A stretch of 37,396 nt of DNA. It comes from Chrysochromulina tobinii (taxonomy: Eukaryota > Haptophyta > Prymnesiales > Chrysochromulinaceae). Both the position numbers and the translations under genes were made by a program. Where the stretch lies: positions 1 through 37,396 of the forward strand of contig JWZX01002977.1 in NCBI GenBank assembly GCA_001275005.1, read 5' to 3'. Below, piece after piece: positions 2-33,900 of the stretch. The stretch's first letter is position 1. Every line of letters begins with the position of its first letter. The notes under the pieces were generated by a model. It searched no databases and was not told where the DNA came from. It saw only the letters and a list, made by a program, of their open reading frames with translations.

Positions 2-238
2 CCCCTCCGCACGGAGTCCGCCAAAGCCAAGCCGGCTGACACGGCACTTGTCGAGGCGAGGTTCAACGCCCACGTCCTCAACAAGATCCACGGGGCCCCA
101 ATCACCGCGGAGAACCTCGCGGCCTTCATCGAGAAGTCAACTCGTCGAACCATCCCCAGACGAGCACTCCCTGGCGGCCGCTCTTGGGATCGACATCGCT
201 ACCGCCGACTTCGATCCGAGCAACACCCGTTGCCCTGA
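2..238 (+). CDS. 3' tail of the upstream (gag-like) frame of the copia element, partial
   Basis: Frame 2 is open from the left edge to a TGA at 236-238. It reads as protein-like sequence (LVEARFNAHVLNKIHG, then APITAENLAAFIEK) up to about position 136, after which it becomes arginine- and proline-rich and looks non-coding. The pol frame becomes protein-like at about the same place, one base over. Frame 2 to frame 0 is a +1 change, so this is either the end of gag before a +1 frameshift, as in Ty1-type elements, or a simple indel in a single gag-pol frame. No zinc knuckle is visible in the part present. Confidence 0.5.
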   Translation, partial: PLRTESAKAKPADTALVEARFNAHVLNKIHGAPITAENLAAFIEKSTRRTIPRRALPGGRSWDRHRYRRLRSEQHPLP

Positions 239-3200: not shown

Positions 3201-6200
3201 GACGCCGAAGTAGGGGGGGGCTGGCAACACGACGTACTGAACGACGCGACGTACACGAAACTCCTCACTGAGTGCTCTGCCGGCCAGTACGACGCACTCA
3301 TGATCGCGTTCCCGTGCAGCACGTTCTCAGTCTCACGCTTCTTCGACGCCACCATCGACGGCCACGATTCAGGTCCCCCAGTCGTGCGCGACCACGATCA
3401 CCCCGACGGCATCCCCGAGCTCGACCCCAAACACGTCAAGGAACTCAAAACGTCCAACCTCCTGCTCGAGCGCACCGTTGAGCTCGCACTTGCCGCGCAC
3501 CGTTCGACAAGCAAGGCGACCATCATCCTTGAGAATCCGGCCGATCGATCCGTTCGTGGCTCCTCCTGCTTCTCGGAGGACCTCGCCAAGCACGGCTCGC
3601 TCTTCGCCACGTCCGCAGTCGCCCGCCTCATCGCCGGCCTCGAGAACTCGTCGACGGCCACCTTCGCCTACTGCCGGCTCGGCTCTGACTTCCAGAAGTA
3701 CACGACTCTCCTGTACACGAACGATGCGGCGCCCGTCCTCGACGACCTCAACCAGCACAACTACCAGTGCAATCACCCTCGCGGCTCGCACAACAAGGTG
3801 GGAGGCCGCGGCAACGACGGCTCCTTCAAGTCCAAGGAAGCGGCTCCGTACCCGCAGAAGCTCAACCTGCTCCTCGCGCGGGCTCTCACACTCGCGCGCA
3901 CGGGCTCCGCCGAGCCTCTCGAACACGCAGTCCACCCGGAGCCGACCATGGCACGGCAGCCAGTCGCCAAGCCGATCGCAGCTTCGCCACGCACGGCTCC
4001 CCAATTCGCATCGTCGCCGATCGGGCCCCCTCCTTCCACGATTCACGGGCCTCAGCCTACGCCACTTCCCTTTCCAAACCTCGATTCGGCCCTCTCACCA
4101 AAAGGGGCCGCCACCGGGGCCGCGAAATTCTCCGGCGACGATTTCATGCAACCCTCGGGGGGGGCGCTTGAGGGGCAGCCTCCTTTTGATGCCCCTCCGA
4201 CCCCTTGGATCCCTCCAGCCTTGCGCACCGCTGACGACTTCAAGCTCGCGGGTGCTGGCAGCCAGGCTCCCATCGGCCCTCGGCGGCCGGCAAGTTCCAA
4301 GGTCGACTACTTTCCGAAGCAGGCTACGCACAGGGAGTATGGCCCCAAGTGGCTTCCTGCGGTCCCGGAGGAGAAGTCCGGCACCGCCTCCGACCTCGAG
4401 CCCGATCAGCTCACTTCCATCGCCGAGCGCATGGAACACGCGGCGGCTGCCACCGCCTTCAGCGCCAACACCGTCAGCCCGAAGTCAGCTGACTGCGCCT
4501 TTGCTCTCTCGGCATGGATTGACGGCGTCGCTGTCCCACCCGGTGCCGTCAGCGCCGGCCCAGGAACATATGTCGTCGACCACGACGCGCTCGCGGCCCC
4601 ACTCCTTGACGCGGCCACTGCAAGCAGCGCCTCCAAGGCAGCGTTCGAACCCATGTGCGATGCCTTGACCGCGCTCAACTTGGGATCATTGCGTACAACC
4701 GGCGTCAGTGACGGCACCGTGCTTCTCGCGGCCCTTCGAGCCGACACGCCCGACGCTCCTGCAACTCACGCTCAGGCCGCGCAGGACCCGCGCTGGCTCA
4801 AGGCTGAGGCCGGCGAACTCGATAACCACAAGCGCAACGGCTCGTGGGAAGAGCTTCCTCGCTCACAGGTACCTCGCGGCCGCCGCGTTCACAAGCTGGT
4901 GTGGGTCTACAAGGTGAAGCGCGACGGCACATGCAAGGCACGCCTCTGCGTGCAGGGCTGCACACTCGAGGAAGGCATCGATTTCGATCAGACCTTTTCG
5001 GCCGCGCTTCGCTACAGCTCGGCTCGCGGCCTCTTCTGCTACGCCGCTCGCAAAGGCTGCAAGGTACGCAGCATCGACTACGTGGCAGCGTACCTTCAGG
5101 GCAAGTTCATCGAGGGCGAGGTCATCTACTGCCACATGCCGCCCGGCTACGTCGAGCTGGACTCCGACGGCATCCCTCGCGTGCTCAAGATTGTCAAGCC
5201 TATCTACGGCATTCCACAGGCTGGTCGCCGCCTTCAGCGCCAGATCTTCCCGTGGATGAAGGCGCAAGGCCTCAAGCCTCTTGATGATTCTGACCCGTGC
5301 GTCTTTGTGCGCGAGGATGACAGCGACGGCGAGATCTTCGTCGTTGGCCTCTACGTGGACAACCTCCAGATCGTGCACTCCGTCGACATCGACGACAAGG
5401 GAAACGCGCCTCCGGGCTCTTTCTGCGCCTCGTTCCTCAAAGCGCTCAACGAGACCTGGGACGTCCTCGATGAAGGTCCGATGGTTGATCTCCTTGGCAT
5501 CCAAGCGCGCCACAACGCCGACGGATCAATCACGCTGCACCAGGAGGCCTACATCGACAAGCTAGTGGAACGCTTCCTTCCTGGCGGCGTACCTACTTCA
5601 CTGCAGGGCACTTCGCTCCCTTACTCACGCAACCTCGACAAGCACGTCTCGGATGCGGCCGCCTGCACCGGTGTGGACTACCCGCACCTCGTGAAACCAT
5701 TCCAAGAGCGCATCGGCTCCCTCATGTATGCCACGACCTCGACTCGCTGCGACATTGCCTACCCCGTCCACCAACTCTGCAAGTGCCTGGCCAAGCCTAC
5801 GCCCGAGCTGATGGAGGAGGCAGACCGCATCATTGCGTACCTTGCGCGCCACCGTTCCGTCGGCATCACCTTCGACCCTGGTTCGACCGACCTGCACGCC
5901 TTCTCGGACGCGTCTTGGGAGGTTCGCAACTCTACCTCCGGCTGGGTCGTCATGTGGGGCAACGCGGCGCTCTCTTGGGGATCACGCAAGCAGAAATGCG
6001 TCGCTCTTTCGTCTTGCGAAGCCGAACTCATTGCGCTCTCCGAGGCTACCAAGGACGTTGTCTATACCCGCAAGTTCGTCGCTGGTCTCGACAAGTCCGC
6101 GGTCCGCGGCCCTACTGATCTTCGTACGGACAACATGGCCGCTCGCCACGTTTCGTACAACCCCGAGCTTCACGATCGGATGAAGCACGTGGCGCGTCGT

Positions 6201-6431
6201 CACTTCTTCGTGCGCGACATGGTTGAGTCCTTCGAGATCAACGTCCCTTTCGTCCCTACGAAGGAAAACGTGGCCGACTTCTTTACCAAGTCCCTTCCGG
6301 CCCCCGCCTTCTTCGCCTTTCGCAAAATCCTCATGAACGAGCGCGACCAGGCACCTCCTCCTTCTAAGCTCTCGCCCTTACTCGTGGGTCTCGCTATGGT
6401 CGAGGGGGGGGCGTCCGAAGGAAATGCCTGA
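48..6431 (+). CDS. Copia-type Pol polyprotein with inserted cytosine-methyltransferase-like domain
   Basis: The frame is open to the left edge, so the true start is unknown (position 48 is only a TTG); residues below count from 48. Visible in order: an acidic Cys-containing region; an IQ-like motif near residue 162; three hydrophobic stretches (about 253-274, 319-345, 404-422); protease motif DSG at 494-496; an HHCC-like zinc region; integrase with D721, D794 and E830 (exact D-35-E spacing); a methyltransferase-like domain (about 1020-1255: NLFSG, FPCSTFS with Cys1090, LENP at 1161-1164); reverse transcriptase (about 1600-1800) with YVDN where copia normally has YVDD; and RNase H starting near FSDASW (1952) with the copia-typical KHVARRHFFVRD. 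The stop at 6429-6431 is just upstream of the LTR. The product would make and integrate cDNA of the element. Confidence 0.92.
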   Translation: MSRRGSTPTSSTRSTGPQSPRRTSRPSSRSQLVEPSPDEHSLAAALGIDIATADFDPSNTRCPDFVPGCSGTCARQYETDTTDSASSDDEPDPVPRCEECADNPDERLFSRVLKFLPHFWACIVTGMLLGLDPMDRELLDDDAQLMFVVHDCVEVKRDHSARTIQVRWRRFKARRSGACPPPPAEGAQKGPPADEPAVSAEQLADDPAEPADPSRDDAKRAAMAPLLIATRMAAILDARRRQRLSAGPPAIRWLAASAIGIVLLALIAGTLAGPTSVPILAIDGPFTDGDPGGDAALRSDALSSVAHRISERLLARAAYHVLLAFVTTIFTVAVLWPSAFAAVAGRQPADVTRGLTYVMATPMIGLVNGACSLGPATGRSTAAIWLARGTSSAASALTRLRRAAPIFVALALLASALLIGPAASDYHSAVAVAHGTNVMRIDLPYYGRWMPQGATADETLRQSSLDPAALEALVAGAASKHPAAPIGVLKLHPDSGCTGSNTPHLHLLANPRPCDEIYSQANGNISRCEAIGDLPVIVRDKQGTTVQLTFTNVRCVPDFKFSLLSVKQLWNEQGIDARFCDINALVLPNQSGLIPYDPARPLSTINAVPCANVAATAHHVPPTKCPQTTLEALASLGFHQVGSTSHLAKLSGVQIGALMHRRNHGGIHKIKACVHASKDGPKNLGAAVQPTCLDCAATRIKAAAHSGRREPCTEPGTLHIDLKEFARSYGGYQYALIAVDEHTRYIFTQCLRHKSEALDAVKRVVAEFNAIVGTRLDADGKPLPRPTVRTIMSDREGKLISHAFNEFRANASLHHNTSAPHDHDLNGIAERAIGAVSETAAALLHSANATVLEWPWLIRYAVDWHNSLIGDTGTSSSDPQISPYQRLTHKLPAIMDLARYGCRAVVLKPPNQQNKTALDSRGWVGTFCGRSVNSPGCWDVNCNGTIVSSSSVQVDEEHMPRLGSQAHQPLPPTAPSARASPPDPVPHLDSDRPVAPTAPSAAPINASVHHERPAHKALSLLNLFSGPYHRTDGLAAALSAHGWTNITQIDNDAEVGGGWQHDVLNDATYTKLLTECSAGQYDALMIAFPCSTFSVSRFFDATIDGHDSGPPVVRDHDHPDGIPELDPKHVKELKTSNLLLERTVELALAAHRSTSKATIILENPADRSVRGSSCFSEDLAKHGSLFATSAVARLIAGLENSSTATFAYCRLGSDFQKYTTLLYTNDAAPVLDDLNQHNYQCNHPRGSHNKVGGRGNDGSFKSKEAAPYPQKLNLLLARALTLARTGSAEPLEHAVHPEPTMARQPVAKPIAASPRTAPQFASSPIGPPPSTIHGPQPTPLPFPNLDSALSPKGAATGAAKFSGDDFMQPSGGALEGQPPFDAPPTPWIPPALRTADDFKLAGAGSQAPIGPRRPASSKVDYFPKQATHREYGPKWLPAVPEEKSGTASDLEPDQLTSIAERMEHAAAATAFSANTVSPKSADCAFALSAWIDGVAVPPGAVSAGPGTYVVDHDALAAPLLDAATASSASKAAFEPMCDALTALNLGSLRTTGVSDGTVLLAALRADTPDAPATHAQAAQDPRWLKAEAGELDNHKRNGSWEELPRSQVPRGRRVHKLVWVYKVKRDGTCKARLCVQGCTLEEGIDFDQTFSAALRYSSARGLFCYAARKGCKVRSIDYVAAYLQGKFIEGEVIYCHMPPGYVELDSDGIPRVLKIVKPIYGIPQAGRRLQRQIFPWMKAQGLKPLDDSDPCVFVREDDSDGEIFVVGLYVDNLQIVHSVDIDDKGNAPPGSFCASFLKALNETWDVLDEGPMVDLLGIQARHNADGSITLHQEAYIDKLVERFLPGGVPTSLQGTSLPYSRNLDKHVSDAAACTGVDYPHLVKPFQERIGSLMYATTSTRCDIAYPVHQLCKCLAKPTPELMEEADRIIAYLARHRSVGITFDPGSTDLHAFSDASWEVRNSTSGWVVMWGNAALSWGSRKQKCVALSSCEAELIALSEATKDVVYTRKFVAGLDKSAVRGPTDLRTDNMAARHVSYNPELHDRMKHVARRHFFVRDMVESFEINVPFVPTKENVADFFTKSLPAPAFFAFRKILMNERDQAPPPSKLSPLLVGLAMVEGGASEGNA

Positions 6432-8777: not shown

Positions 8778-9937
8778 TCAGACAAGTGGGAAGCGCGCGA
8801 CTGGCTCTATGTTGTGACGTTTGGCGAGCTTCCACAGCAATCGCAATCCATCGCAATCCATCGCAATCAACACGCGACGCACGAGTGGCTCGATGTTGTA
8901 ACGTTCGGCGAGCTTCCACAGCTCGGCCGTTGGCTGTGCGAGGGCGGCCTCCCACGGCTTGGGCCGATGCACAAAGTGCACGATGGCCACCTCGGTGCGC
9001 GCCCACAGCTTACGGTTTGCCTTGCGTGTCTTCACACCCATATTGTATCCGAGAGCGAGAGCGTTGTGGTGAGCACTTGCATGCAAGGCAGGTCATCAGT
9101 GGCAATCAGCGTGTCTTCACACCCATATCGTATCCGAGAGCGCTGTGGTGAGCACTTGCTTGCAAGGCAGGTCATCAGTGGCAATCAACGTACCTTCACA
9201 CCCATATTGTATCCGTAGGGCAACGCCGTCCAGCGACCCTTGAAGTGATGATTGAAGATGGATTGGTCGGTGAGCTGATCCCGTTCGCCAGCTCCCTGGA
9301 TGCGAATCGGTGTGAGCCCCAAGCCCGCCGAGCCCGCAGGCAGCCGCCCATCGAAGGACGCACGGAGGGAGAGATCTTCTAGAGCGGTCGCGTCGGCGAG
9401 CGACGGCGTAAACACGAAGACGCCCGAGTTGAACTGCTTCATCGCATAAGGAAGAGCCGCCACGGCTGCAAAGGGCGGCTGGTCGAGCAGCGCGTCGACA
9501 TTGCGCGCGATGAGCATGTCGATGTCCAGGAACGCGGCGCGGCTGTACCCATCCAGCGCAAAGAGGAGGAGCTTCTGGAACGTGCGGTGGGCCCAGCCGG
9601 TGGACCGCACGAGCTGTCTCGTGGACGTGAGCTGCGCGCGCGCTTGTAATCGGCGGCCTGCACGCTTGTGCTGGTCGACACGTGCGCGCAAGTCCGAGAG
9701 CCGACGGATTCGACTTCCAGCAAACGCGGCCGTGAGCTCCGCCATCGCAGAATCGGGCAGCGGGTCAGCAACCACCAATGTTAGTGGGCATCTGCTGCCA
9801 ACGCGAGCCATGCTGCGCCGCAGACAAACAGCTCCGGGCACGTACGTCTCGTTCGCGATCAGAGTCACAAAGGTCGCGTTCGGAGCGCATCGGGAGGGCG
9901 TCGGCAGTAGCTTGAGGTATGGCGCCACTCTCGTCAT
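8778..9937 (-). CDS. Glycosyltransferase family 8 (glycogenin/galactinol-synthase-like)
   Basis: Two exons: 9937-9194 and 9029-8778, phase 0, about 331 residues. GT8 landmarks in order: N-terminal ATFVTLIANETYVPGAVCLR; metal- and sugar-nucleotide-binding DID at 138-140 within AAFLDIDML; FNSGVFVF; TDQSIFNHHF; YGYNMGVK; and in exon 2 IVHFVHRPKPW, the family's HxxGxxKPW-type motif. The predicted reaction is transfer of a hexose from a nucleotide sugar; the acceptor is unknown. No signal peptide is obvious, so a 5' exon could be missing. The 164-nt intron holds two extra copies of the exon 1 end. The C-terminal WKLAERYNIEP segment is repeated as WKLAKRHNIEP across a TGATTGCGA-rich spacer that could itself be spliced (GTGTTG ... 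GGAAG) or translated. Confidence 0.85.
9030..9193 (-). repeat. Glycosyltransferase intron built of two tandem units carrying exon-end copies
   Basis: CTTCACACCCATAT(T/C)GTATCC, the antisense of the exon 1 end, occurs at 9030-9050, 9115-9135 and 9194-9214, spaced 85 and 79 bp apart. Between copies, in the sense direction, lie TGATTGCCACTGATGACC, then GCATGCAAG and GTGCTCACCACA. These are the decamer-type and module B sequences found in introns of other genes here. Confidence 0.85.
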
Positions 9938-15191: not shown

Positions 15192-16706
15192 ATGCTTGCA
15201 GGCCGGATCGCGATCATCACCGGCGCCGGTCGCGGTATCGGCGCTGCCGCCGCCTTGGCGTTTGGACGTGAGGGCGCGCGTGTGGTGATCAATGACCTCG
15301 ACGCCGACGAGGCTCATGCGTCGGCCGCCGCCGTGCGCGCTGCGGGCGGCGAGGCGATCGCCTTCCCCGGTTCAGTCACTGATGCCAACCTGCCGGACGC
15401 GCTGATGCGGGCGACCCTCGACGCCTATGGCACGCCGGACGTGATCGTCAACAACGCAGGCTTCCTTTGGGACGGAGTGCTGCACAACATGAGCGACCGC
15501 CAGTTCGAGGAGGTCATCGCATGCCACCTGACCGCACCCTTCCGGCTGCTCCGAGCCGCGGCACCGCACATGCGCGGCAGCGCGAAGGCGGAGCTCGCTG
15601 CGGGCAGGCGTCCCCGTGATCGCTCGATCATCAACGTGAGCTCGACGAGCGGCCTGCATGGTAACTTTGGGCAGGCGAACTACGCGGCTGCCAAAGTGGG
15701 CGCACCGACCGGCCACTGATTACGTCCGAGTGCGTCCGAGTGCGAACTGATTACGTCTGATTACGTCTGATTACGTCTGATTACCACTGATTACGTCCGA
15801 GTGCGAACGAGTGCGGACGAGTGCGTCTGAGTGTGGACGAGCGCGGCTGATTGCGCCTGGTTGCCGCTGAGATGACTTGCATGCGATTGCATCTGGTTGC
15901 AAGCAGGCGGGCATCACCGGCCTCACCAAGACGCTCGCCAAGGAATGGGGTCCGCTCGGCGTGCGCGCGAACGCGATCGCCTTCGGTAAGATGGAGACAC
16001 GCATGACTTCGGTCGGTCCCAGTACCAGCATGCCAGCGCTCACGACGGCGCCCCCCTCCCAGGTATGATTGAGACGCGCATGACCTCCGCCTTCGCCGAA
16101 GATGCGGCCGTTACTGTGGGCGGCGAGGCGATTCCACAGGTGGGCTGATTGGTGTTGATGAGCGTTGATGGGCGTTGATGAGCACTGATGAGCACTGATG
16201 AGCACTGATAAGCACTGATGAGCACTGATGAGTACTGATGACCTCACTCATCAGGGACTCCAGGAGCACGTGGCCTCCCTCATTGCATGCTGATTGCCTC
16301 CCTCATTGCATGCTGATGACCTCCCTCATCAGGGACTCCCGGAGCACGTGGCCAAAATCTGGAGCTCAGCCGAGACGCTCAAGGCGGTCGTACCGCTCGC
16401 GCGCAAGGTGAGTGCGCTTGCCCCTCTGATTGCCTCTGATGGCCGCTGTGTGCCGCTGAGTGCCACTGAGTGCCACTGAGTGCCATTGAGTGCCGCTGTG
16501 TGCCGCTGAGTGCCTCTGAGTGCCACTGATTGCCTCCCTCGTCGCATGCTGATGGCCTCCCTCATTGCATGCTGATGGCCTCCCTCATGGCATGCATGCA
16601 GGGGACCGTCGAGGAGGCGGCGGCGGGCATGCTCTTTCTTGCATCGCCGCTCGCATCCTACATCACCGGACATACGCTCGAGGTGACGGGCGGCTTCGGG
16701 ATCTAA
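15192..16706 (+). CDS. Short-chain dehydrogenase/reductase, FabG-like
   Basis: Five exons: 15192-15695, 15907-15985, 16063-16139, 16333-16407, 16602-16706; phases consistent; 279 residues. Classical SDR features: cofactor loop TGAGRGIG (10-17), NNAG (87-90), Ser near 150-152 in NVSSTSG, Tyr164 and Lys168 in YAAAK, followed by AGITGLTKTLAKEWGPLGVR and the C-terminal ASYITGHTLEVTGGFGI. The likely activity is NAD(P)H-dependent 3-oxoacyl reduction or a related hydroxy/keto conversion. No clear targeting peptide is present. Introns 2 and 3 contain near-copies of the following exon's first 20-odd bases; intron 3 also holds a TGATGAGCAC decamer array. Starts about 200 bp from the divergent hydrolase. 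Confidence 0.92.
15696..15906 (+). repeat. SDR intron 1: TGATTACGTC decamer array
   Basis: This 211-nt intron has donor GTGGGC and acceptor TTGCAAGCAG. Its body is tandem TGATTACGTC and CGAGTGCG-type units followed by TGCATGCGATTGCAT words. The sense strand carries TGA in every frame. Confidence 0.85.
16140..16332 (+). repeat. SDR intron 3: TGATGAGCAC array, exon-edge copy and shared 3' module
   Basis: The intron begins GTGGGC, continues with about eight TGATGAGCAC-type decamers, then TGACCTCACTCATCAG followed by a 22-nt copy of the next exon's start (16252-16273). Next come two TCCCTCATTGCATGCTGAT units and finally TGATGACCTCCCTCATCAG before exon 4. Confidence 0.85.
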
Positions 16707-19276: not shown

Positions 19277-22200
19277 ATGTCCGACGTACGTGCGACATTC
19301 AAGGATGCGAAAACCGTGGTCATCAAGGTCGGTACGTCGGTCGTGTCTCGGCCCGACGGCACGGTCGCCATCGGCCGCATTGCTTCGGTCGTGGAGCAGA
19401 TCGCGCAGCTGCGCCTGCAGGGCAAGCGCGTGGTGCTCGTCGCGAGCGGAGCGATTGGCGTGGGCTCGACACGGCTCAACGAGCAGGCCGTGCTGTCCAA
19501 GAGCATCCGCGCGCACCTTATCAACCCGACCGGACACAACGGCTCGTCGGCGTCCGCGCGAGCTCGCGCCGCCGCGGGCCAGGGCGGGCTGATGGGCTTG
19601 TACGACACGCTCTTCTCCCAGTATTCGGTCGCGTGCGGCCAGCTGCTCGTGACGGAGCTCGACTTCCAGACCTCCACGCGCAAGGAGCGCTTCTGCGACT
19701 CGCTGCGCTGGCTGCTCGACGCGGGCGGCGTGCCCGTGATCAACGAGAACGACGTGACCGCACGCCCAGAGGAGCGCTCGCTTTTCCGCGATAACGACTC
19801 TCTCGCGGTGCTGATCGCGCTCGAGCTGCAGGCGGACCTGCTGCTGCTGCTCTCGGACGTGTCTGGCGTGTACGCTCGCCAGCCGTGACCGGGAGAGACG
19901 CCCGAGCTTCGGCCCATGGATGATGACCTCTGATTGCCGCTGATTGCGCCCCTCATCAGGTACGCTCGCAAGCCGTTGCCGGGAGAGACGCCCGAGCTTC
20001 TGCCCATAGTGACAAGCAACAGCCTCGCCTCGATCTCCTTTGGCGAAAAGTCCGAACGCGGCCGCGGCGGCATGGAAGCGAAGGTGGAGCCTGATTGCGG
20101 CCTGATTGCGTCTGATTGCGGCTGATTGCGGCTAATTGCGGCGGCATGGAAGCGAAGGTGGAGTCTGATTGCATCCGATTGCATGTAAGTGCTCACCACG
20201 GCGCCACCCCATCTCCCCACAGGTGGAGGCTGCGCTCCAGGCGGCAGAATCGGGCGTCGGCGCCGTCGTGATCGCCTCTGGCTTCGCACAGGTACCACCC
20301 ACCTGCGGACAGTGCTGACAGCCCAGCATGCAAGGGCCCACCACGGCGCCATCGTCCATGCACACCCGGCATGCAAGGGCTCACCACGGCGCCCTCCCGC
20401 CTCCTCTCTTCCCCACAGCTCACCACGGCGCCCTCCCGCCTCCTCTCTTCCCCACAGGAGTCGATTGCCCGTCTCGTTGCCGGTGAAGACCTCGGCACCG
20501 TGTTCCTCGACCACCGGAGCGCCATGGCGAGCAATCTCGCCGCCGAGATCGCCCAGTCTCGGCAGGTAAATGGGTGCCTCTGATGGCCTCCGATGGCCTC
20601 CGACGACGTCTGATGACGTCTGATGACGTCTGATGGCCTCTGATGACCTCTGATGGCAGCCGAGTGCGCAGGCGCAGGCGCAGGCGAGTGCTCACCACGG
20701 CGCCCCCTCCTCTCCCCACAGCCGAGTGCGCAGTCGCAGGCGCAGTCGGCGCGTGCGGCGGCGCGCGCGCTGCAGCTGCTCAGCTACCAGGAGCGCGTGC
20801 ACATATTGAAGGCGATGGCTGATGCGCTCGAGGAGCACGTAAACGAGATCGTAGCTGCCAATCAGGCACGTGCCGTTGATTGCCACTGATTTCCATCGAT
20901 TGCCATTGATTGCCATCGATTGCCATTAAGCGAGATCGTATCTGCCAATCAGGAGGACGTGGCCGCGTTTGCGAGCGCGAGGGAGGCGAATCAGGCAAAG
21001 GAGGGCGGCGACGCGGCGAACAACGCGCTCGCCGAACGACTGCTGCTAACGCCTAAGAAGCTCGGTGACGTGGCATCTGCTCCCTCCTCTGATTGCCTCC
21101 CTCATCAGCCCAAGAAGCTCGGTGACGTGGCATCCGCTCCCTGGGCGCTGATGGCCTACGATGGCCTCTAATGACCTCTGATTGCCTCCCTCATCAGGTG
21201 ACGTGGCCAAGGGCATCCGCTCCCTCGGCGCGCAATCAGATCCACTCGGGCGTACCACGCGTCTCGTCGAGATCTCGCCCGGGCTCGTGCTCGAGCAGGT
21301 TTGATTGCCATTAATTGCGATTGATTACCATTGATTGCCGTCGAGATCTCGCCCGGGCTCGTGCTCGAGCAGGTGTGATTGCCATTGATTGCCACGGATG
21401 GCGCCACCGCTCTCTCTGACGCGATCTCGTCGATATCTCGCGCGATCTCGAGCAGGAGACGGTTCCGATCGGCGTGCTACTCGTCATCTTTGAGAGCCGG
21501 CCGGACGTTCTGCCGCAGGTGTGATCTCCCTTGATTACACTGGATTGCCCTTGATTACTCTTCACACCGTTGAGAGCCGGCCGGACGTTCTGCCGCAGGT
21601 GTGATCTCCCTTGATTACACTGGATTGCCCTTGATTACTCGTCATCTTTGAGAGTCGGCCGGACGTTCTGCCGCAGGTGTGATCTCCCTTGATTACACTG
21701 GATTGCCCTTGGTTACTCTTCACACCGTTGAGAGTCGGCTGGACGTTCTGCCGCAGGTGGCGGCGCTTGCGGTGGCGAGTGGCAATGGTGTGCTGCTCAA
21801 GGGCGGCAAGGAGGCACTACGCACCAACACGGTGCTTCACAAGGTGCTGTCCGCGCCCCTCCATGAGCGTCTGATTGCGCCTGATTGCGCCTGATTGCAT
21901 CTGATTGCATCTGATTGCCTCCATCATCAGGTGCTGTCCGCCGCCATCGAGCGGTCGAGTGCTGGTCGGGTGGGCGGGAGCGTGCTCGGGTTTGTGGAGG
22001 GGCGGGAGGCCATCGCCCAGCTGCTACGCCTCCATAAGGACATCGACCTCGTGATCCCTCGCGGCTCGAACGCGATGGTGCAGCACATCATGAGCTCCAC
22101 GCGCATCCCAACCCTCGGCCACGCCGACGGCATTTGCCACCTGTACGTGGACGCGGCCGCGGATCTTGAGAAGGCGATCGCGCTCACGATCGACGCGAAG

Positions 22201-22877
22201 AAGGACTACCCGGCCGCATGCAACGCAATCGAGACGTTACTCATCCACGAGTCGCTCCTTGGCAGCGGCGCGGCGAAGCGCCTTGTGGAAGCGGTCCTCG
22301 ACGCGCAAGTCACCCTGTACGGCGGCCCCAAAGCGGTCGTCGCCTTCGGCTTGCCGCCCGCCGCCTCGTTGCGCGTCGAGTATGGGGCGCTCGCGATGGC
22401 GGTCGAGCTTGTGCCCTCTGTGCAGGTGAGTGTCGTTAATTGCCTCTGATGGCCTCTGATGGCCTCTGATGACCTCTGATGGCCACTGATGGCCGCTGAT
22501 TGCATCTGATGGCGGTCGAGCTCATGCCCTCGTTGCAGGCGGCCATCGAGCACGTCAACGCGCACGGCTCCGGGCACACCGACGTCATAGTGACGGAGGA
22601 CCCGAGGGCGGCACAGACCTTCCTAAACGGGGTCGACTCGGCCGACGTTTTCCACAACGCGTCGTCCCGGTTCGCAGACGGCTTCCGGCTTGGGCTAGGC
22701 GCCGAGGTGGGCATCTCGACCTCGCGCATCCACGCACGAGGACCTGTGGGTGTGGAAGGGCTGCTCACCACGCGTAACCGCCTCATCTCCGATTCGTCAC
22801 ACCTCGTGGGAGAGTTCCACTCGGGCAAGAAGAAGTACACGCACCGCAATCTCCTCGTGCCACAGTCGCGGCTGTAG
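19277..22877 (+). CDS. P5CS: Delta-1-pyrroline-5-carboxylate synthase (bifunctional glutamate kinase / glutamyl-phosphate reductase)
   Basis: Eleven exons: 19277-19869, 19960-20083, 20223-20291, 20458-20565, 20722-20865, 20953-21064, 21198-21298, 21456-21518, 21757-21843, 21931-22425, 22539-22877; every phase closes, giving 744 residues, normal for P5CS. The N-terminal half is glutamate 5-kinase ([42 protein letters not shown]). The C-terminal half is gamma-glutamyl phosphate reductase ([33 protein letters not shown], then [14 protein letters not shown] with the catalytic Cys564). It converts glutamate to P5C, the committed step of proline (and ornithine) synthesis. Intron 5 is GC-AG; the others are GT-AG. 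Nearly every intron contains copies of an adjoining exon edge, so donor choice among copies is inferred from protein continuity. Confidence 0.95.
19870..19959 (+). repeat. P5CS intron 1 containing a copy of the exon 2 start
   Basis: The first 47 nt of the intron (GTACGCTCGCCAGCCGTGAC...) match the first 47 nt of exon 2 (GTACGCTCGCAAGCCGTTGC...) with only a few changes, one of which makes a TGA. TGATTGCC-type units and the 3' module TGATTGCGCCCCTCATCAG follow. Confidence 0.9.
20084..20222 (+). repeat. P5CS intron 2: exon-end copy plus module B
   Basis: The exon 2 end (GCGGCATGGAAGCGAAGGTG) recurs at about 20141-20160, flanked by CTGATTGCGG units. Then come GCATGTAAGTGCTCACCACG, GCGCCACC and CCCCACAG, the module B acceptor. 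Confidence 0.88.
20292..20457 (+). repeat. P5CS intron 3: module B in tandem
   Basis: The core (GGGC/T)(C/T)CACCACGGCGCC appears three times (about 20334, 20378, 20418). The last two are followed by the same pyrimidine-rich CCTCCTCTCTTCCCCACAG, so the intron carries two complete potential 3' splice sites. Confidence 0.88.
20566..20721 (+). repeat. P5CS intron 4: CTGATGACGT decamers and module B acceptor
   Basis: After GTAAAT come about eight CTGATGGCCTC/CTGATGACGT decamers (20579-20660). A copy of the next exon's CGAGTGCGCAGGCGCAGGCG follows, then GTGCTCACCACGGCGCC and CTCCCCACAG. Confidence 0.88.
21065..21197 (+). repeat. P5CS intron 6: two exon-edge copies and two TGATTGCCTCCCTCATCAG modules
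   Basis: AAGAAGCTCGGTGACGTGGC is present at the exon 6 end and again within the intron after a first complete module A (about 21095-21113). The true acceptor uses a second module A at 21179-21197, and exon 7 restarts with GTGACGTGGC. Confidence 0.9.
21299..21455 (+). repeat. P5CS intron 7 containing a copy of the exon 7 end
   Basis: CGTCGAGATCTCGCCCGGGC with CGTGCTCGAGCAGGT (36 nt) at the exon 7 end is repeated at 21339-21375. GATTGCCATTGATT-type units flank the copy. The acceptor is CTCGAGCAG. Confidence 0.88.
21519..21756 (+). repeat. P5CS intron 8: three head-to-tail 78-80 bp units
   Basis: The whole 238-nt intron is three units (80, 78, 80 nt). Each starts GTGTGATCTCCCTTGATTAC and ends with a copy of the exon 8 end (GCCGGCCGGACGTTCTGCCG then CAG). 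Each unit therefore begins with a donor and ends with an acceptor. Units differ by only a few substitutions. Confidence 0.95.
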
Positions 22878-23952
22878 ACTGAGGCGCCGTCACGGCCGAC
22901 GCAGAAGAATGACGTCAAGTGCATGCATGCCCCATGCAGCTTCATAATGACGCCAAGTGCATGCATGCTCCATGCAGCTTCATAATGACGCCAAATGCAT
23001 GCATGCCCCATGCAGCTTCATAATGACGCCAAGTGCATGCATGCCCCATGCAGCTTCATAATGACGCCAAATGCATGCATGCTCCATGCAGCTTCATGAA
23101 CATCTACTGTAAGGCCCAGGCATGAGGCCGGGCATGAGGCCGGGCAAGAGGCCAGAGCAAGAGGCCAGAGCACACAGTCGCTCGGCATGGGAGAGCCATA
23201 TGTGCTTACAGCATACCCGTTTATGGTTTGAGAGAGGCGCAAAGTGGAAGCTGTTCAAGGACGAGCACGTGTCATCGGATCGCGCGTGATTGGCACTGCA
23301 CTTGCGAGATGGTGGAGATGGCGCCGTGAGGAGTGTGTGCTGCGCTGCTGTCAGTGAGTGCATGTGTGAGTGCGACCTGTTTGGCGCTGGCGGGCCTGGC
23401 GCTAACGTGGCAACTTCCCTACTACCGGGTCCGCTTGTTGGCCGAAGCAGATTACACCGGTCACCGCCGACCGCGCGTGCGGTGCAACTGTCGGTGTTTT
23501 ATGTCGGCTCGGTACCATCAACCATCGAAGTTGCAAGTTCGAACCAACATGACTCCGTTACGCTGTGTAGCGATCATGGTAGCGATGTCGGAGCGTTAAC
23601 TGAAGAGGACACGCCGCGTATGGTCGCTTGTCTTGCTCGGACACACCTTAGGTCTCCGCATAAACCAAAGGCGTGAAACTCCACATATCTCGGAGAGCGG
23701 ATCGACGACCGTCCTGGGGACCTGGGCTCTCACTGACACCGCACCCGCACACCCATCTGCGCGGCGCGCGCTGGGTCCCTACTGTACACAGCACGCCCAC
23801 ACAGTGTCCCAGATCACGAGAGAGCCCTGTGCCTGCCCCTCGCCCTGTCCACCCCTGGATACACCCCTGGATCGTCCCTGCCGGTGGAGACATCTGCCGG
23901 CGCCTTGATTGGCAGTGGGTCGGATCTCGGTTGAGCTCGGGTTGAGCTCGGC
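22878..23952. other. Convergent intergenic region between P5CS and acyl-CoA dehydrogenase
   Basis: It holds the 38-bp tandem array described below, a GGCATGAGGCCGG / GCAAGAGGCCAGA short repeat (about 23112-23172), and otherwise no coherent frame. GTTCGAACC at about 23538 resembles a tRNA T-loop, but no cloverleaf forms around it. Confidence 0.5.
22908..23097 (+). repeat. Five-copy 38-bp tandem repeat downstream of P5CS
   Basis: Five contiguous 38-bp units start at 22908, 22946, 22984, 23022 and 23060. The unit begins AATGACGCCAAGTGCATGCA and ends CCCATGCAGCTTCAT; copies differ at two or three positions. It contains the palindrome TGCATGCA, also frequent in the introns. Confidence 0.95.
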
Positions 23953-26795
23953 TTACCTCGAGTGGTCGAAGGAGAAGTTGGCGGCGGGCATGGCCATGAC
24001 AGAGCCGAGGTCCGCAAGCATCCCGGCCTTGTGCGAGCGCGTGCGCGCCAGCAGCCGGTCGAAGACATATGCGGACGTCTGCACCTTGGCGTTGTAAAAA
24101 TCAGGCTCCTCGTCGCCGCCCTTGGCGAGCGAGTGCACGGCCGCCTGCTCCATTCGCAGCCAGTGGGCCGCCAGGGTGACCCAGCCAGAGTACCTGTGGG
24201 CAAGGGAAGCGAGGGCGCCGTGGTGGGCACATGCATGCGGCTCTCCTGACGGCGCGCGACGGCGCCGTGGTGGGCACATGCATGCAGCTCTCGCTGACGG
24301 AGCGCGCGTGTGGCGCCGTGGTGGGCGCGCGCACATGAGGTAGTCGACGCTCGCCGACGAGATCCACTCTTTATCCTTCGTCGAGCGGAACGCGACTCGG
24401 TACGTGAGGTACTGCCACTCGAGCGTGTGGTAGAAGAGGGACCAAGCACGTCCACGGAGCCCCGCGTTGCCCGAGGTGAGCAGCGGCATGCATAGCGCAC
24501 GCAGCTCGCCGCAGTGCTCGCCGATGGGCTTGAGCTTCTGTGAATGTGAATAAGCTCGCACGCTCGACCAGAGGCTCGGTCAGAGGGAGATCAAGGGAGA
24601 TCAAGGGAGCATGAGGAGATCGAAATGAGCTCGAAATGAGATCGAAAGGAGATCAAAGGAGATCGCACCTGCAGCAGGATCTTACGGCCGAGGAGATCGA
24701 GCGCCTGGATTTGGGTCGTGCCCTCCCAGAGCGACGCGATACGAACGTCGCGGAACACCTGAGGTCATCAGCGGTTATCAGCGGTCATCAGCGGTCATCA
24801 GCAGTCATCAGTGGCCATCAGAGGTCATCGGCGGTCATCAGCGGTCATCACCTGCTCGGCCTTGTTGTCCTTGATGTAGCCGTGCCCACCGTAGGCCTGG
24901 ATGCCAAGGTCGGCGGCCTCCTTGCCAGCCTCGGTGAGAAAGCCTTTGAGGATAGGCGTCAGGAACGCGAGGCGCTCATCGACCTGATTGCATGCACAAT
25001 TTGGATCGAGCACGCATGCAATCAGAGGCAATTCGAGGCCATGAGAGGCCATTCGAGGCCATTCGAGGCCATGAGAGGCCAGAGGCCATCAGAGGCATCA
25101 GACCGTACCTCCTTCGCGCCCTTGTGATCGCCAGCGCGCTCGCAGTCCGTCATCTTGTCGACGAGCTTGGCGCATTCGTACACCATCGAGCGCCCCCCCT
25201 CGGAGACCGCCTTTTGGAACAGGAGCATCGTGCGCACCTGCATGCACTCGTGAGGGAGGGCACTCAGCATGCAGCTTGGACGGAGACCGCCGTTATGGAA
25301 CCAAGTTTGGGACGGAGACCGCCGTTATGGAACCAAGTTTGGGACGGAGACCGCCTTTTGGGAACCAAGTTTGGGACGGAGACCGCCTTTTGGGAACCAA
25401 GTTTGGGACGGAAACCGAAGCATCGTGCGCACCGACGGATGATGAATGATCGAGTCGGCGACATGCTCGGGGTCCTTGGCGCCCGACAGCGCGCGCATCG
25501 AGCGACGCTCCTTGCAGTACCAGAGCGAGTTTTGGAACGCAAGTTCGGCCGCCGCCACGCCCTGTGCCGCGGTGGGGAAAGGGTAGGGCGCCGTGGTGAG
25601 CACTTGCATGCAAGGCAGAGAGGTCTCCACGCGCTGCCTCCACCTGGACCGCGGTGCCGCCGCAATCAGTCGCAATCAGCCGCAATCAGACTCCACCTGG
25701 ACCGCGGTGCCCACGCGCGACGTGTTGATGAACGTAAACATGTGATTGAGCCCGCGGTTCTCCGTACCAATGAGCCACCCTTGGGCGTCTTCGAACTCAA
25801 TCTGGCAATGAGAGGCAATTGGAGGCAATGAGCGGCAATTGGAGGCAATGAGCCACCCTTGGGCGTCTTCGAACTCAATCTGGTACGAGGTCATCAGAGG
25901 CCATCAGAGGCCATAGAGGCCAGTCCCTCACCTGGCACGTGGGCGAGCCATGGCAACCCATCTTATCCTCAATGCGGCTGGTCGTGACGCCGTTGAAGTC
26001 GCCCACCGCGCCGTCCGCGTACTGCTTCTTCGGCACGAGGAACAGGGAGATCCCCTTGGTGCCCGCAGGTGCGCCCGGCAGGCGCGCGAGCACGCAGTGC
26101 ACGATGTTCTCGGTCATGTCGTGCTCGCCGCACGAGATGAAGATCTTGGTGCCGTTAATCTTGTAGCTGCCGTCGCCGTTGGGCTTGGCGTTCGTCGTCA
26201 CCTGCCCAAGGTCCGAGCCGCACTGGGGCTCCGTCAGGCACATGGTGCCCGTAAACTCGCCGGAGACGAGCGGCGGGAGCCACTTTTGCTTCAGCTCGTC
26301 AGTCGCGTGGGCGATGATCGTGTTGATCGCGCCCTTGGAGAGGCCGGGGAACATGGTGAACGTCCAGTTCGCCGTCGCCGTCATCTCCGACTGGATCAGT
26401 GCCATCGACATGGGCAGGCCCTGACCGCCCCACTCCTCGGGGTAGGCGAGGCCCTGCCAGCCGCTCTCGCAAAAGAGCTCGTACGCCTCCTTGTAGCCCT
26501 TCGGCGTCTTGACGGTCGTGCCGTTGATCCACGTGCAGCCTTCGCGGTCGCCGTTGGCCCAAATCGGCGCGAGCTCGTTCTCGCACAGCGTCTTCGTCGC
26601 GTCGATGACCATGTCGATTGTCTCGCGGTCCGCGGCAGCCGCGTGCTTGAGCGTCGTGTAGTGCTTGTCGAACTTGTGGACATCGTAGATGAGGAACCGC
26701 ATGTCGCGCGCGGGTACCTGATACCCGCGCGTCATCACGCGCGTGGCCACGGCGCTCGCATGCCGCGTGGCGCGTTGCAGCCGGCTCGCCCGCAT
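23953..26795 (-). CDS. Mitochondrial acyl-CoA dehydrogenase, large type with C-terminal extension
   Basis: Eight exons: 26795-25932, 25801-25697, 25561-25433, 25237-25109, 24983-24852, 24758-24669, 24537-24335, 24193-23953; phases close; 630 residues. An Arg/Ala-rich presequence (residues 1-30) suggests mitochondrial import. Then come the N-terminal domain (GLAYPEEWGGQGLPMSMALI), the FAD/substrate signature FTGTMCLTEPQCGSD (181-195), the middle domain (IEFEDAQGWLIGTENRGLNH) and the C-terminal helical domain with YGGHGY (440-445) and LWEGTTQIQALDLLGRKIL. Length and the extra C-terminal domain match the FadE5-like class. It should oxidise acyl-CoA to trans-2-enoyl-CoA. The terminal codons read GAG GTAAGC on the gene strand, so a further exon is possible. 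Introns 1-3 hold exon-edge copies. Confidence 0.93.
24194..24334 (-). repeat. Acyl-CoA dehydrogenase intron 7: module B three times
   Basis: On the gene strand, GCCCACCACGGCGCC occurs three times, twice preceded by GCATGCATGT. The last copy is followed by CTCGCTTCCCTTGCCCACAG. Confidence 0.9.
24538..24668 (-). repeat. Acyl-CoA dehydrogenase intron 6: GATCTCCCTT array
   Basis: GATCTCCTTT / GATCTCCCTT decamers follow the donor GTGCGATCTCC. The same unit fills kinase intron 4 (about 32750-32805), whose donor is GTGCCATCTCC after an identical CTGCTGCAG exon end. Confidence 0.85.
24759..24851 (-). repeat. Acyl-CoA dehydrogenase intron 5: pure TGATGACCGC decamer array
   Basis: The 93-nt intron reads GTGATGACCGC followed by about eight further TGATGACC(G/T)C-type decamers and ends TGATGACCTCAG, so donor, body and acceptor are all made from one decamer. 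Confidence 0.93.
25238..25432 (-). repeat. Acyl-CoA dehydrogenase intron 3: four 32-bp copies derived from exon 4
   Basis: Plus-strand units at 25279, 25311, 25343 and 25375, each 32 bp, contain GGAGACCGCC(T/G)TT(T/A)... , the complement of exon 4's CAAAAGGCGGTCTCCG. Units 1-2 and 3-4 form two subtypes. The intron also starts with GTGCGCACGATGCT, the first 14 nt of exon 4. Confidence 0.92.
25802..25931 (-). repeat. Acyl-CoA dehydrogenase intron 1 with an in-frame copy of the exon 2 start
   Basis: CAGATTGAGTTCGAAGACGC and the following CCAAGGGTGGCTCATTG occur twice, 78 bp apart (copy starts on the gene strand at 25879 and 25801). The spacer is CCAATTGCC/CTCATTGCC units. Using the upstream acceptor would add 26 residues without a stop. 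Confidence 0.88.
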
Positions 26796-30916: not shown

Positions 30917-33900
30917 TCACCAGCCGTGCACACGGTCCGCGAGCGACGATTCCGCCGCGATCTGCACGCCTTCGACCTCCGACGCAATCTCGAAGCTGGA
31001 CTCGATGGCGTTCCCGCGCGCGATCGCAAAGTCCGCATGCGGCGGCTCCATTCTCTGGCGCTGCAGCGCTTCCCAATCCAAGCCCCAGAAGAAGGCATGT
31101 GGTTTCAGCTCGGCGCCCCGAGCCCCCGAGCTGCCAAGACGGCGCCCCGCGTCGCGATCGAGGAGCGCGTCGAGAAGGGCTGTGGTATGCTTGCTCCCGT
31201 GCACGGCGTACCGGTGCTCTGGGCGCGCGGTCACCTGATGAGGGAGGCAATCAGTCGCAATCATCAGAGGCCATGCGAGGCCAGCCGAGGTCATCCGCGG
31301 CCATCCGCGGCCATCCACGGCCATCCGAGGCACCCCTCAAGCGTGGCAGTGCTCGGCACTGCGCGGTTGACCTCACCTTGTTCGTCAGAATGTTATCGAA
31401 GGTCTTCTGCGGCCGCTGCTGCGGGTCCTGGAAGGGTGTGGTGAGGGTGAGGCATTGGACCAACAATACGCCAAGCGACCACCAGTCCGCCGCGATGCCG
31501 TAGCCGCGGTTTTGGATCACCTCAGGCGCCATAAACTCGGGGGTACCACACACGGAGAAGAGCGGTCGCTCGTCCAAGACGAAGCCCGCGAGCCCGAGGT
31601 CCGCAAGGACAGGCCAGCCGTCGGCACGAAGCAGCACGTTCTCCGGCTTGAGATCGCGGTACACGACCCCGAGTGCATGCAAGCGCTCGAGTGCGAGGAT
31701 GAGGCATGCAGCGTAGAAGCGGAGCTCGGATTCGTCCATCGCTCCAAATTCGGCAAGTACATTCCACAGCTCGCCGCCCAGGCACGCGGGCATCACCACA
31801 TGCAGATGCGTCGCGTCCTGTCCGCTCGTCACCAGGTGGATGACCCAGCGGCACACCACGTTCGCGTCGCCCCGCTCAGTGCCCGCCATGAGCCTGAGCA
31901 AATCTCGCTCGCGCTCGAGATAGCGAAGCATGTTCTTGCCCGCGCTCGTCGCCAGCCGCTCCTTCGAGAAGCTCTTCACTGCATAAAACCGGCCTGAAAG
32001 CTTGTCTCGCCCCAGTCGGACAACCCCGGAAGCTCCAGAGCCGAGCACGTTGCCCAATTGCAATTGACGAAGCACGAGTCCGTCCTCGCCACGCTTGGCC
32101 TGCTCGCGCAGCCGATGGAGGGAGGCAATTAGAGGCAATCAGAGGCAATTAGAGGCAATCAGAGGTCATCCGAGGTCATCAGCGCACCTGCTCGCGCAGC
32201 CGATGGAGCCCGAATGCGATCAGAGCATCCAACCACTGCTGCGGGGTGCCACCGAGAACCACCCGCGCCCGCGCCGCCGCGGCGCTCTCCGCCGTCGGCT
32301 CCTTTCCCAATGTGGCCGAGGTGGAGGCGGCGAGCACAGCGGCACGCAGAGCGGCCTGCCCCTCGTCTGCGGCGGCGAATGGCAGCAGCCCGGGCGCGAG
32401 GCACGCGACGAAACGACACCATGCGTGCCCGATGGGCGACGGGTGCAGCGCGAGGGCGAGGCCTAATGAGTGCGCAATCGACGAGCCCGATGAGCGCCGA
32501 TGAGGGAGGCAATCAGAGCTCCTCCGCGCGAATCAGTGGTCATCAGCGCTCATCAGCGGCTCTCACCTAGTGCGCGCAAGTTGACGAACCCGATGAGCGG
32601 CTCGTGATTGTAATCTCCCGACTTGAGACTCACTCCCTCCTCGAGGAGCACCGCATCTCCCTGCAATCCGAACGCACTCCGAACGCACTCAGAGCGCACT
32701 CAGAGCGCACTCAGCGGCAATCAACGCTCCGCGCGCGCACCTCGAGTTCTCAAGGGAGATCAAAGGAGATCAAGGGAGATCAAGGGAGATCAAGGGAGAT
32801 GGCACCTGCAGCAGACGAGTTGCCTCGAGCGCATCACAGAGCGCCTGCTGCACCCTCGCCGCCAGCGCCGCGCTCGCGCCTTCCAAAGAGCCGCCTGCCG
32901 CGGCGGCGGCCTTGGCGGCAGCGCGACCCGCCGCGCTCAGATCTCGCACGCGTAGACGGTCGTTCGCACGTCCCTTCTCGTCAGTGAGACAGTCGCCATC
33001 GAGGACGTCGAGATCCAGTTGCGAGAGAGTGGCGGAGAGGTCCGCGAGTAATCGATTGCGCGAGGGTACCTTGACGATCAGTTCGTAAAGGGGTCCTTCG
33101 CCCGCATCATCCGTCGCTGATGGTACCCCAACGGCTTCCACGCCCGCGCCCTCAACCCCCGCCCCGCCCCCCTCGCCCACCCCCACGGAGAGCAACGAGC
33201 GGCCCACGGCCGACATACCCGACAGCTCCTTGCCAAAGTCCATCTGGGGAGGGAGATTGTGGCCATGGGGGCGGTAATGAGGGCGGTAATCAAGAGGGAG
33301 ATTGTGGCCATGGGGGCGGTAATGAGGGCGGTAATCAAGAGGGCGATCGTGGCCATGGGCGGTAATGGGGGCGGCAATGAGGGCGGTAATCAAGAGGGCG
33401 GTAATCAAGAGGGCAAGCAGCGCACCTTGGACGGTGAAGGGGGCGCGAGGGTGGCCTCGGCGCTTGAGAGTGGGGTGAGCTCCACCTCCACACCTGCATG
33501 CGAGGCAATTAGGGAGGCAATTAGAGGCGCAATCAGGGAGGCCATCAGGCAATTAGGGAGGCGATTCGAGGCGCAATCAGGGAGGCTATTCGAGAGGCAT
33601 CAGAGGAGAGCAATCTCTAATGAGAGAGGTCATCAGTGAAGGTCCGAGGCTGCACTGATTGCACACCGCCCAACTCGATCACCTCGCCTGTGAGCACGAG
33701 CCCGAGTGACGAACGCGCCGTCGCGAGCGAGCTGCCACCGCCTGCGTCGCGCAGCGGCCGTGGGACCACTAACTGGCACAGCTGCGGAAGCTCGGCGAGG
33801 ACGGCAAGGGCGGAGCGCGCTCGCCAAGACTGCTCGGAACGGCGCACGAGAGACGCGTGAGTGAGTCGGCATGCCATGAGAGGGCTCATCAGGGCTCATC

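Follow-up and report, generated by a model that had tools for sequence, protein, structure and literature searches.

How does a single gene come to hold ten introns, almost all of them containing a copy of the edge of a neighbouring exon? The question is raised by the gene for delta-1-pyrroline-5-carboxylate synthase (P5CS) in the haptophyte alga Chrysochromulina tobinii, which lies on a 37,396-nt stretch of DNA (contig JWZX01002977.1 of GenBank assembly GCA_001275005.1; here the window, contig C1818 of the 2,253 contigs and 53.15 Mb that were searched). Most introns of this gene, and further loci on many other contigs, contain exon segments (X) present in duplicate on either side of repetitive filler DNA, an arrangement written below as X-filler-X. 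Copied exon edges together with such filler suggest that new introns can arise when a cut-and-fill accident duplicates part of the gene, and in our judgement insertion of filler with duplication of X is probably the source of new introns in this alga.

The P5CS coding sequence was delimited by homology, from its ATG at 19277 to a stop region at about 22875 on the forward strand. Exon 1 matches P5CS structures in the PDB, and once ten introns between 19870 and 22538 are removed the resulting frame can be aligned to seven homologues, gaps falling in variable stretches near introns 4 to 6; the best named match is from Prymnesium parvum (60%). In a blind spliced alignment with the proteins of three relatives, eight of the ten introns were placed exactly with each protein and introns 4 and 5 were shifted, while protein P0004 placed an extra, eleventh intron at the 3′ end. 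The borders given here for introns 4 and 5 are those of our own model and differ from the blind alignment. As a set, the ten introns are supported by this homology. Directly 3′ of the stop lie five 38-bp tandem repeats (22908-23097).

The introns are assembled from a small set of parts. A copy may open the intron: the first 48 nt (19870-19917) of intron 1 (19870-19959, 90 nt) repeat the start of exon 2 at 92% identity and the filler ends in CTCATCAG, and the opening of intron 9 (21844-21930, 87 nt), about 35 nt, is a gapped copy of the exon 10 start, with a decamer filler ending in CATCATCAG. A copy may also close it, as in intron 5 (20866-20952, 87 nt, GC-AG), where the exon 5 end is repeated in the final 26 nt (20927-20952) and the donor comes from the filler, and in intron 10 (22426-22538, 113 nt), where the filler starts with GTGAGT and the final 31 nt (22508-22538) copy the exon 10 end. 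Other introns are more composite. Intron 2 (20084-20222, 139 nt) begins with GTGGAG, as exon 3 does, and holds a 30-nt junction-spanning copy at about 20138-20167, decamer filler and then the GTGCTCACCACGGCGCC module; intron 4 (20566-20721, 156 nt) runs from decamer filler through a copy of the exon 5 start (about 20655-20691) to module and acceptor; and intron 6 (21065-21197, 133 nt) has an exon-start copy at its start (11/15) and a second, junction-spanning copy at about 21108-21148. Intron 7 (21299-21455, 157 nt) holds the end of exon 7 twice, exactly over 35 nt at 21339-21373 and in diverged form at its 3′ end, and intron 8 (21519-21756, 238 nt) is built from an 80-nt unit of exon end and filler repeated about three times, the last copy supplying the acceptor. 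Intron 3 (20292-20457, 166 nt) is without a significant exon copy and contains two copies of its own 39-nt acceptor module (20379-20457).

Each intron was aligned locally to 60 + 60 nt of its own adjacent mature mRNA, with 500 dinucleotide shuffles as the control. Nine of the ten P5CS introns outscored 500 of 500 shuffles, which bears out the original prediction, made from the letters of the window, that nearly every intron of this gene holds an exon-edge copy; the exception is intron 3, whose score was reached by 50 of 500 shuffles. The best copies are 26-48 nt long at 87-100% identity, that of intron 7 being identical (35/35 nt), and in introns 2, 4, 6, 7 and 8 they are internal to the intron. 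Junction 7 also received a 71-point match from another intron, which fits, since exon 8 is only 63 nt long and is copied within intron 8. A search of the alga's own genome for a P5CS paralogue that could serve as an empty site gave 11 matches, each of them inside the window. Among viral contigs, a search for relatives at protein level returned two loci, at 44% and 39% identity.

This geometry can be accommodated by a short series of events. A short filler would enter an exon and 15-50 nt at the insertion point would be duplicated, giving X-filler-X, after which the splicing out of one X together with the filler would restore the original coding sequence. Three forms would be expected, according to where a GT or AG chances to fall. 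In type I, X would give the donor at its start, with the acceptor lying in the filler; in type II the acceptor would be the end of X, with the donor coming from the filler; and in type III an AG/GT inside X would give both splice sites. Later rounds at the same place would duplicate exon-intron boundaries, lengthening the intron and leaving inner AG/GT as potential recursive splice sites. We infer that the duplication and the filler insertion may be a single event, starting from a staggered lesion, either paired nicks or a break, that is filled in and joined with filler DNA, and that the survivors would be picked by selection for splicing. Staggered nicks or breaks that are filled in and joined with filler would be expected to leave an X of variable length on both sides of a filler. 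Tandem duplications are known to follow paired nicks in plants.

The same parts recur in other genes. Adenylosuccinate synthetase (PurA, L019) has 11 introns, identical when modelled with P0121 and P0123, the more distant P0178 shifting three and adding one, and a dimethylglycine dehydrogenase-like gene (DMGDH, L012) has 12, identical with P0241, P0242 and P0251. Alignment of introns to exons against shuffled introns, the check that had been proposed with the prediction, returned significant exon-edge copies in 22 of the 33 introns of these three genes (P5CS 9/10, PurA 8/11, DMGDH 5/12). An SDR gene inside the window (15696-16601, forward strand) contributes four more introns (15696-15906, 15986-16062, 16140-16332 and 16408-16601), two of which, introns 2 and 3, carry exon-edge copies that outscore all other junctions, as judged by junction comparison and not by shuffles. 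With this gene added, copies are present in 24 of the 37 introns of four genes, a non-random sample in that PurA and DMGDH were picked for contigs rich in period-10 arrays. The 37 models have 35 GT and two GC donors and 37 AG acceptors, the aligner having permitted only GT or GC with AG. At exact intron ends, with at least 11 of 15 bases matching, type I is found in 4/37 and type II in 7/37, where chance is 0.3% per side. In 11/37 introns, then, one exon edge is directly repeated exactly at the far end of the intron, as it is in 20 clean cases among the 60 sampled loci described below.

The junctions of DMGDH can also be read against a separate data set. Protein P0250, encoded on a 2,175-nt public contig known here by this protein only, is identical to the spliced L012 model over its full 568 residues (568/568), across 11 introns and 4,639 genomic nt. 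The gene with its introns would not fit into 2,175 nt, so the contig most likely represents a transcript from the same species; an intronless gene copy is the less likely alternative. For a second gene besides P5CS the best named match is again Prymnesium parvum (70%). In DMGDH intron 12 (L012, about 2200-3000, minus strand), an exon edge (CGCAACGGCAG) and decamers are amplified to an 800-nt satellite with a GC donor, which is still spliced out, as P0250 indicates.

The filler is usually of one of two kinds, unrelated in sequence: a sense-oriented array whose units, each about 10 nt long, share a CTGAY core and which often has CCTCCCTCATCAG at its end, or a 40-nt module (GCATGCAAGTGCTCACCACGGCGCC...CCCCACAG). 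Decamer fillers have unit and acceptor in common and differ in length and sequence. Since decamer and module fillers both give X-filler-X at GT, two unrelated fillers share one geometry. Self-identity of the 37 introns is 0.444, 0.393 and 0.364 at lags of 10, 20 and 30, against 0.22-0.29 elsewhere; at least two decamer cores are present in 32/37, and TGAT[TG]G cores are found 193 times in sense and twice in antisense orientation. CTRAY, the branch-site consensus, occurs near the 3′ end of 23/37 introns (0.15 expected from mononucleotide shuffles), and the CTGAY core of the filler resembles such a site. From intron to intron the repeat units vary in sequence, the 10-nt period, about one helical turn, being kept. 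The 25-nt intron module is also found at the end of a phage-like contig that encodes a primase (PHROG 35358; IMG/VR contig 3300027760_000958, L040 4370-4554). Before it, a 37-nt X (34/37) flanks a different decamer, ACGAACCCTG, present in four copies; this contig is perhaps a chimeric assembly with algal DNA. An exact acceptor 20-mer had no match in the viral contigs or genome contigs searched.

Recurrence across the genome was observed in loci chosen by intron motif only, without regard to any copies. The acceptor 22-mer CTGATTGCCTCCCTCATCAGGT has 219 + 206 exact genomic copies, its reversed control none. In 40 occurrences, one per contig, the sequence 3′ of the acceptor was compared with the preceding 320 nt, and 25/40 scored at least 28, against 7.6% of mismatched pairs, although some of these 25 (L076, L089) match filler instead of exon; the copy starts exactly at GT in 20 loci, 13 of them clean. 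For the module, the 17-mer GTGCTCACCACGGCGCC has 334 forward and 334 reverse matches (control 0), and 9/20 loci scored at least 28 (0.26% of mismatched pairs), a count that leaves out L060, a long copy whose TAG acceptor was skipped by the search pattern; seven copies start exactly at GT, all clean. At a threshold of 26 the copies starting at GT number 27 (20 decamer, 7 module). The clean set of 20 (13 decamer, 7 module) was obtained by removing three with CATYAG before and five with a filler core downstream, L100 being in both groups. In these clean type I cases the intron has a median of 79.5 nt (66-141), X a median of 26.5 nt (15-44) and the filler a median of 50 nt, and the exon preceding X has an AG end in 8/20. 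Here the donor GT opens the duplicated exon segment and the AG is part of the filler, acceptor placement being set by the motif choice. Sampled type I intron lengths fall into classes 0, 1 and 2 modulo 3 as 13, 1 and 10 (24 cases), which may be chance.

Sampling by arrays gave a similar picture. Of 20 sampled 10-kb stretches (L009-L028), seven contain oriented period-10 arrays reported by Tandem Repeats Finder (TRF), and 19 of 47 period-10 arrays found by TRF alone have similar left and right flanks (score at least 32), against 0.19% of 1,592 mismatched pairs; six of the 19 belong to one L012 satellite (2247-2874), and excluding it leaves 13/41. Some introns of the HSP70-like loci L029 and L030 look similar in a by-eye reading, and four HSP70 matches are intronless across nearly the entire family profile. 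The uneven signal, with arrays in 7/20 stretches and intronless HSP70 matches, would fit a mixed assembly or a strongly unequal intron load.

Within the window, X-filler-X is also found at three sites on the minus strand. At 25638-25711, adjoining acyl-CoA dehydrogenase matches, an exact 21-nt X (GGCACCGCGGTCCAG/GTGGAG) flanks a 32-nt decamer filler; at 32099-32208, adjoining a protein kinase domain match, an exact 22-nt X with a GAGCAGG end flanks a 66-nt decamer filler; and at 8794-8922 a 45-nt X (89%) flanks a period-10 filler. With the SDR gene, these sites make plausible the claim that at least four other genes of the window are affected, a gene model being available for the SDR introns only. 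A scan free of gene models over about 243 kb collected 127 X-filler-X pairs, where five local shuffles gave 4, 5, 2, 2 and 2. Many of these pairs are ordinary repeats of coding sequence, and the design of the scan admitted only pairs with a filler. GT-AG stands in sense in 17 and in antisense in 8 of 49 pairs, a difference that is suggestive only, orientation having been assigned by motif. The window further contains a Copia-like polyprotein in a single open frame (48-6428; RVT_2, integrase core).

The copies also bear on the order of events. PurA intron 4 contains, internally, a 59/59-nt copy of its own uninterrupted exon-exon junction, a sequence expected in genomic DNA only before the intron was present, or via cDNA; it is as would be expected if an intronless site had been trapped between two events. 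Fourteen inner AG/GY sites with an exon-edge copy, in ten introns, would permit stepwise removal with the mRNA unchanged. Some duplication events look recent because their copies are identical (P5CS intron 7, PurA intron 4, and 3/20 clean cases, which have no mismatch or gap over 15-27 nt). The original prediction of recent events in an ongoing, genome-wide process fares unevenly: recurrence across the genome stands and some copies are identical (35/35 and 59/59 nt, and the three clean cases), identity among the sampled copies overall ranges from 80% to 100%, and what speaks for the process being ongoing is copy identity.

Several observations weigh against insertion with duplication as the source of these introns. 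Thirteen of the 37 introns in the four genes are without a significant copy. One 41-mer of filler has no other assembly match at up to 3 mismatches and one 39-mer only two, at 3 mismatches, and this want of a close source speaks against simple recent copying, though the assembly may be incomplete. An open reading frame test on the sampled loci was weak: 18/24 are open when spliced, 8 unspliced, and 15 and 12 with shifts of one and two bases. Seven of the 27 sampled type I copies, those starting at GT, may be inner units of longer introns, and in 12 of the 22 introns with copies (P5CS 2, 6, 7, 8; PurA 1, 5, 6, 8, 9; DMGDH 5, 8, 12) an exon-intron boundary is a closer match to the best inner copy than the exon-exon junction is. 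A copy that contains intron sequence postdates its intron, so in these 12 the best inner copies came after the introns, which is, for a part of the copies, the outcome that the prediction had named as counting against it. The last two observations, with the 800-nt satellite and exon edge of DMGDH intron 12, would suit copies that are secondary throughout, old introns having gained exon edges through minisatellite-driven duplication across the boundary. That reading is somewhat unlikely, for it leaves unexplained the copies that themselves form a donor or acceptor in 11/37 introns, the 20 clean loci of 60 in which the copy starts at the donor GT, and the intact 59-nt exon-exon junction in PurA intron 4. 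The explanation first offered, tandem duplication of an AGGT-containing exon segment (the Rogers 1989 model), here with a filler that expands later inside the intron, survives in one respect, an exon duplication tied to intron borders. AG/GT lies within some X (window 25638-25711, L027, L016), P5CS introns 7 and 8 grow as tandem units, and filler-less pairs lay outside the scan; yet filler stands between exact copies in P5CS intron 7 (35/35 nt) though its decamers already diverge, two unrelated fillers recur genome-wide, and the exon AG end before X is seen in 8/20 clean type I cases, so that we regard the model as very improbable.

Mobile elements would provide another route. Introners are DNA transposons moved by a transposase with a target-site duplication, and in a survey of 3,325 genomes they resemble the present introns in that repeated intron parts are found in many genes, including in a Chrysochromulina metagenome-assembled genome whose Introners bring one of the splice sites and recruit the second from the duplication (PMC9860276). 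The GCATGCAAGTGCTCACCACGGCGCC module would fit, as a conserved repeated intron part before the acceptor with its donor from X. Published duplications measure 3-9 bp for some of the earlier families; the Chrysochromulina example has one of 4 bp and brings the 5′ site instead (PMC9860276). Low-complexity families were filtered out there, so the decamer class would probably have dropped out of that survey. A fixed short duplication of 3-9 bp is not what is found here: X is variable (15-44 nt, median 26.5, n=20), and the decamer filler is low-complexity and has no sequence in common with the module, which makes an Introner origin quite improbable. An RNA route, in which the 3′ end of an excised intron, from branch site to CAG, enters nicked exons by target-primed reverse transcription, would explain the CTGAT core and CAG end of type I filler (partly due to the sample motif), the variable duplications and the sense orientation of 193 to 2. 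LINE and SINE insertions likewise produce duplications of variable length. This route is nonetheless distinctly unlikely, as type II fillers (7/37 introns) have a donor without an acceptor, splicing selection alone also predicts strand bias, and two fillers have no close source. An artefact of sequencing or of a fragmented, perhaps mixed assembly could be suspected from the 2,253 short contigs and from the oriented arrays in only 7/20 sampled stretches, but the scattered substitutions in the copies, the recurrence on many contigs and the P0250 match from a separate data set at 568/568 residues make it scarcely credible.

Insertion with duplication is thus the reading we prefer. A bolder version would see active intron-making in this haptophyte lineage, with an X a few helical turns long duplicated around filler made on the spot in 10-nt steps and not copied from an existing element. 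Introns complete with branch site and acceptor would then be produced again and again, and stacked copies would give recursive, self-consistent introns removable in any order to give the same mRNA; taken as a whole it is an unlikely, tentative proposal.

Staggered breaks were reportedly linked to Daphnia intron gain by Li et al. in 2009. Intron gain at staggered double-strand breaks in Daphnia pulex shows the same geometry, an insert between repeats, with repeated rounds at one site (PMC4202315). The exon-edge repeats there are 4-12 bp, whereas those of the clean sampled cases here are 15-44 nt, and the part of that report considered does not describe the inserts as one family (PMC4202315), while the filler here has a 10-nt period or consists of a shared module, and it contributes splice signals. 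AGGT tandem genomic duplication likewise doubles an exon segment and splices one copy away with coding unchanged (PMC3443670, PMC4974935), but here a filler (median 50 nt, n=20) that recurs in the cases examined separates the copies, a feature left unexplained by duplication in tandem, and AG and GT are often separately sourced; an AGGT within X supplying both splice sites is found only in some cases (type III). The stwintrons and sister introns of Hypoxylaceae also combine several excisable units, nested or in succession, within one intron, differing, as that account presents them, in having terminal inverted repeats and no flanking duplications (PMC8469720). Direct repeats are 3-5 nt in the introners of Amoebophrya (PMC7789003), and introners have been described in mirusviruses (PMC12768974). 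In a survey of direct repeats at the borders of 213 introns the repeats were 4-30 bp with a mean of 11.4 (PMC11782384); those here are longer on average, locus-specific against mismatched pairs and joined to defined fillers. Among the listed titles and abstract openings of the open-licence literature searched, no description of the X-filler-X architecture was found, which is no proof of absence. The pattern is best read as intron gain by insertion with duplication, in which the new elements are duplications of considerable and variable length and a filler of low complexity that contributes splice signals.

The origin of spliceosomal introns is a long-standing question for which there are few fresh cases. 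Here one genome holds many introns whose parts, exon copy, filler and exon copy, are still legible, with copies ranging from identical to decayed, and duplications of 15-44 nt with low-complexity filler fall outside the published classes found. A comparison of strains of this alga would render the mechanism directly testable.

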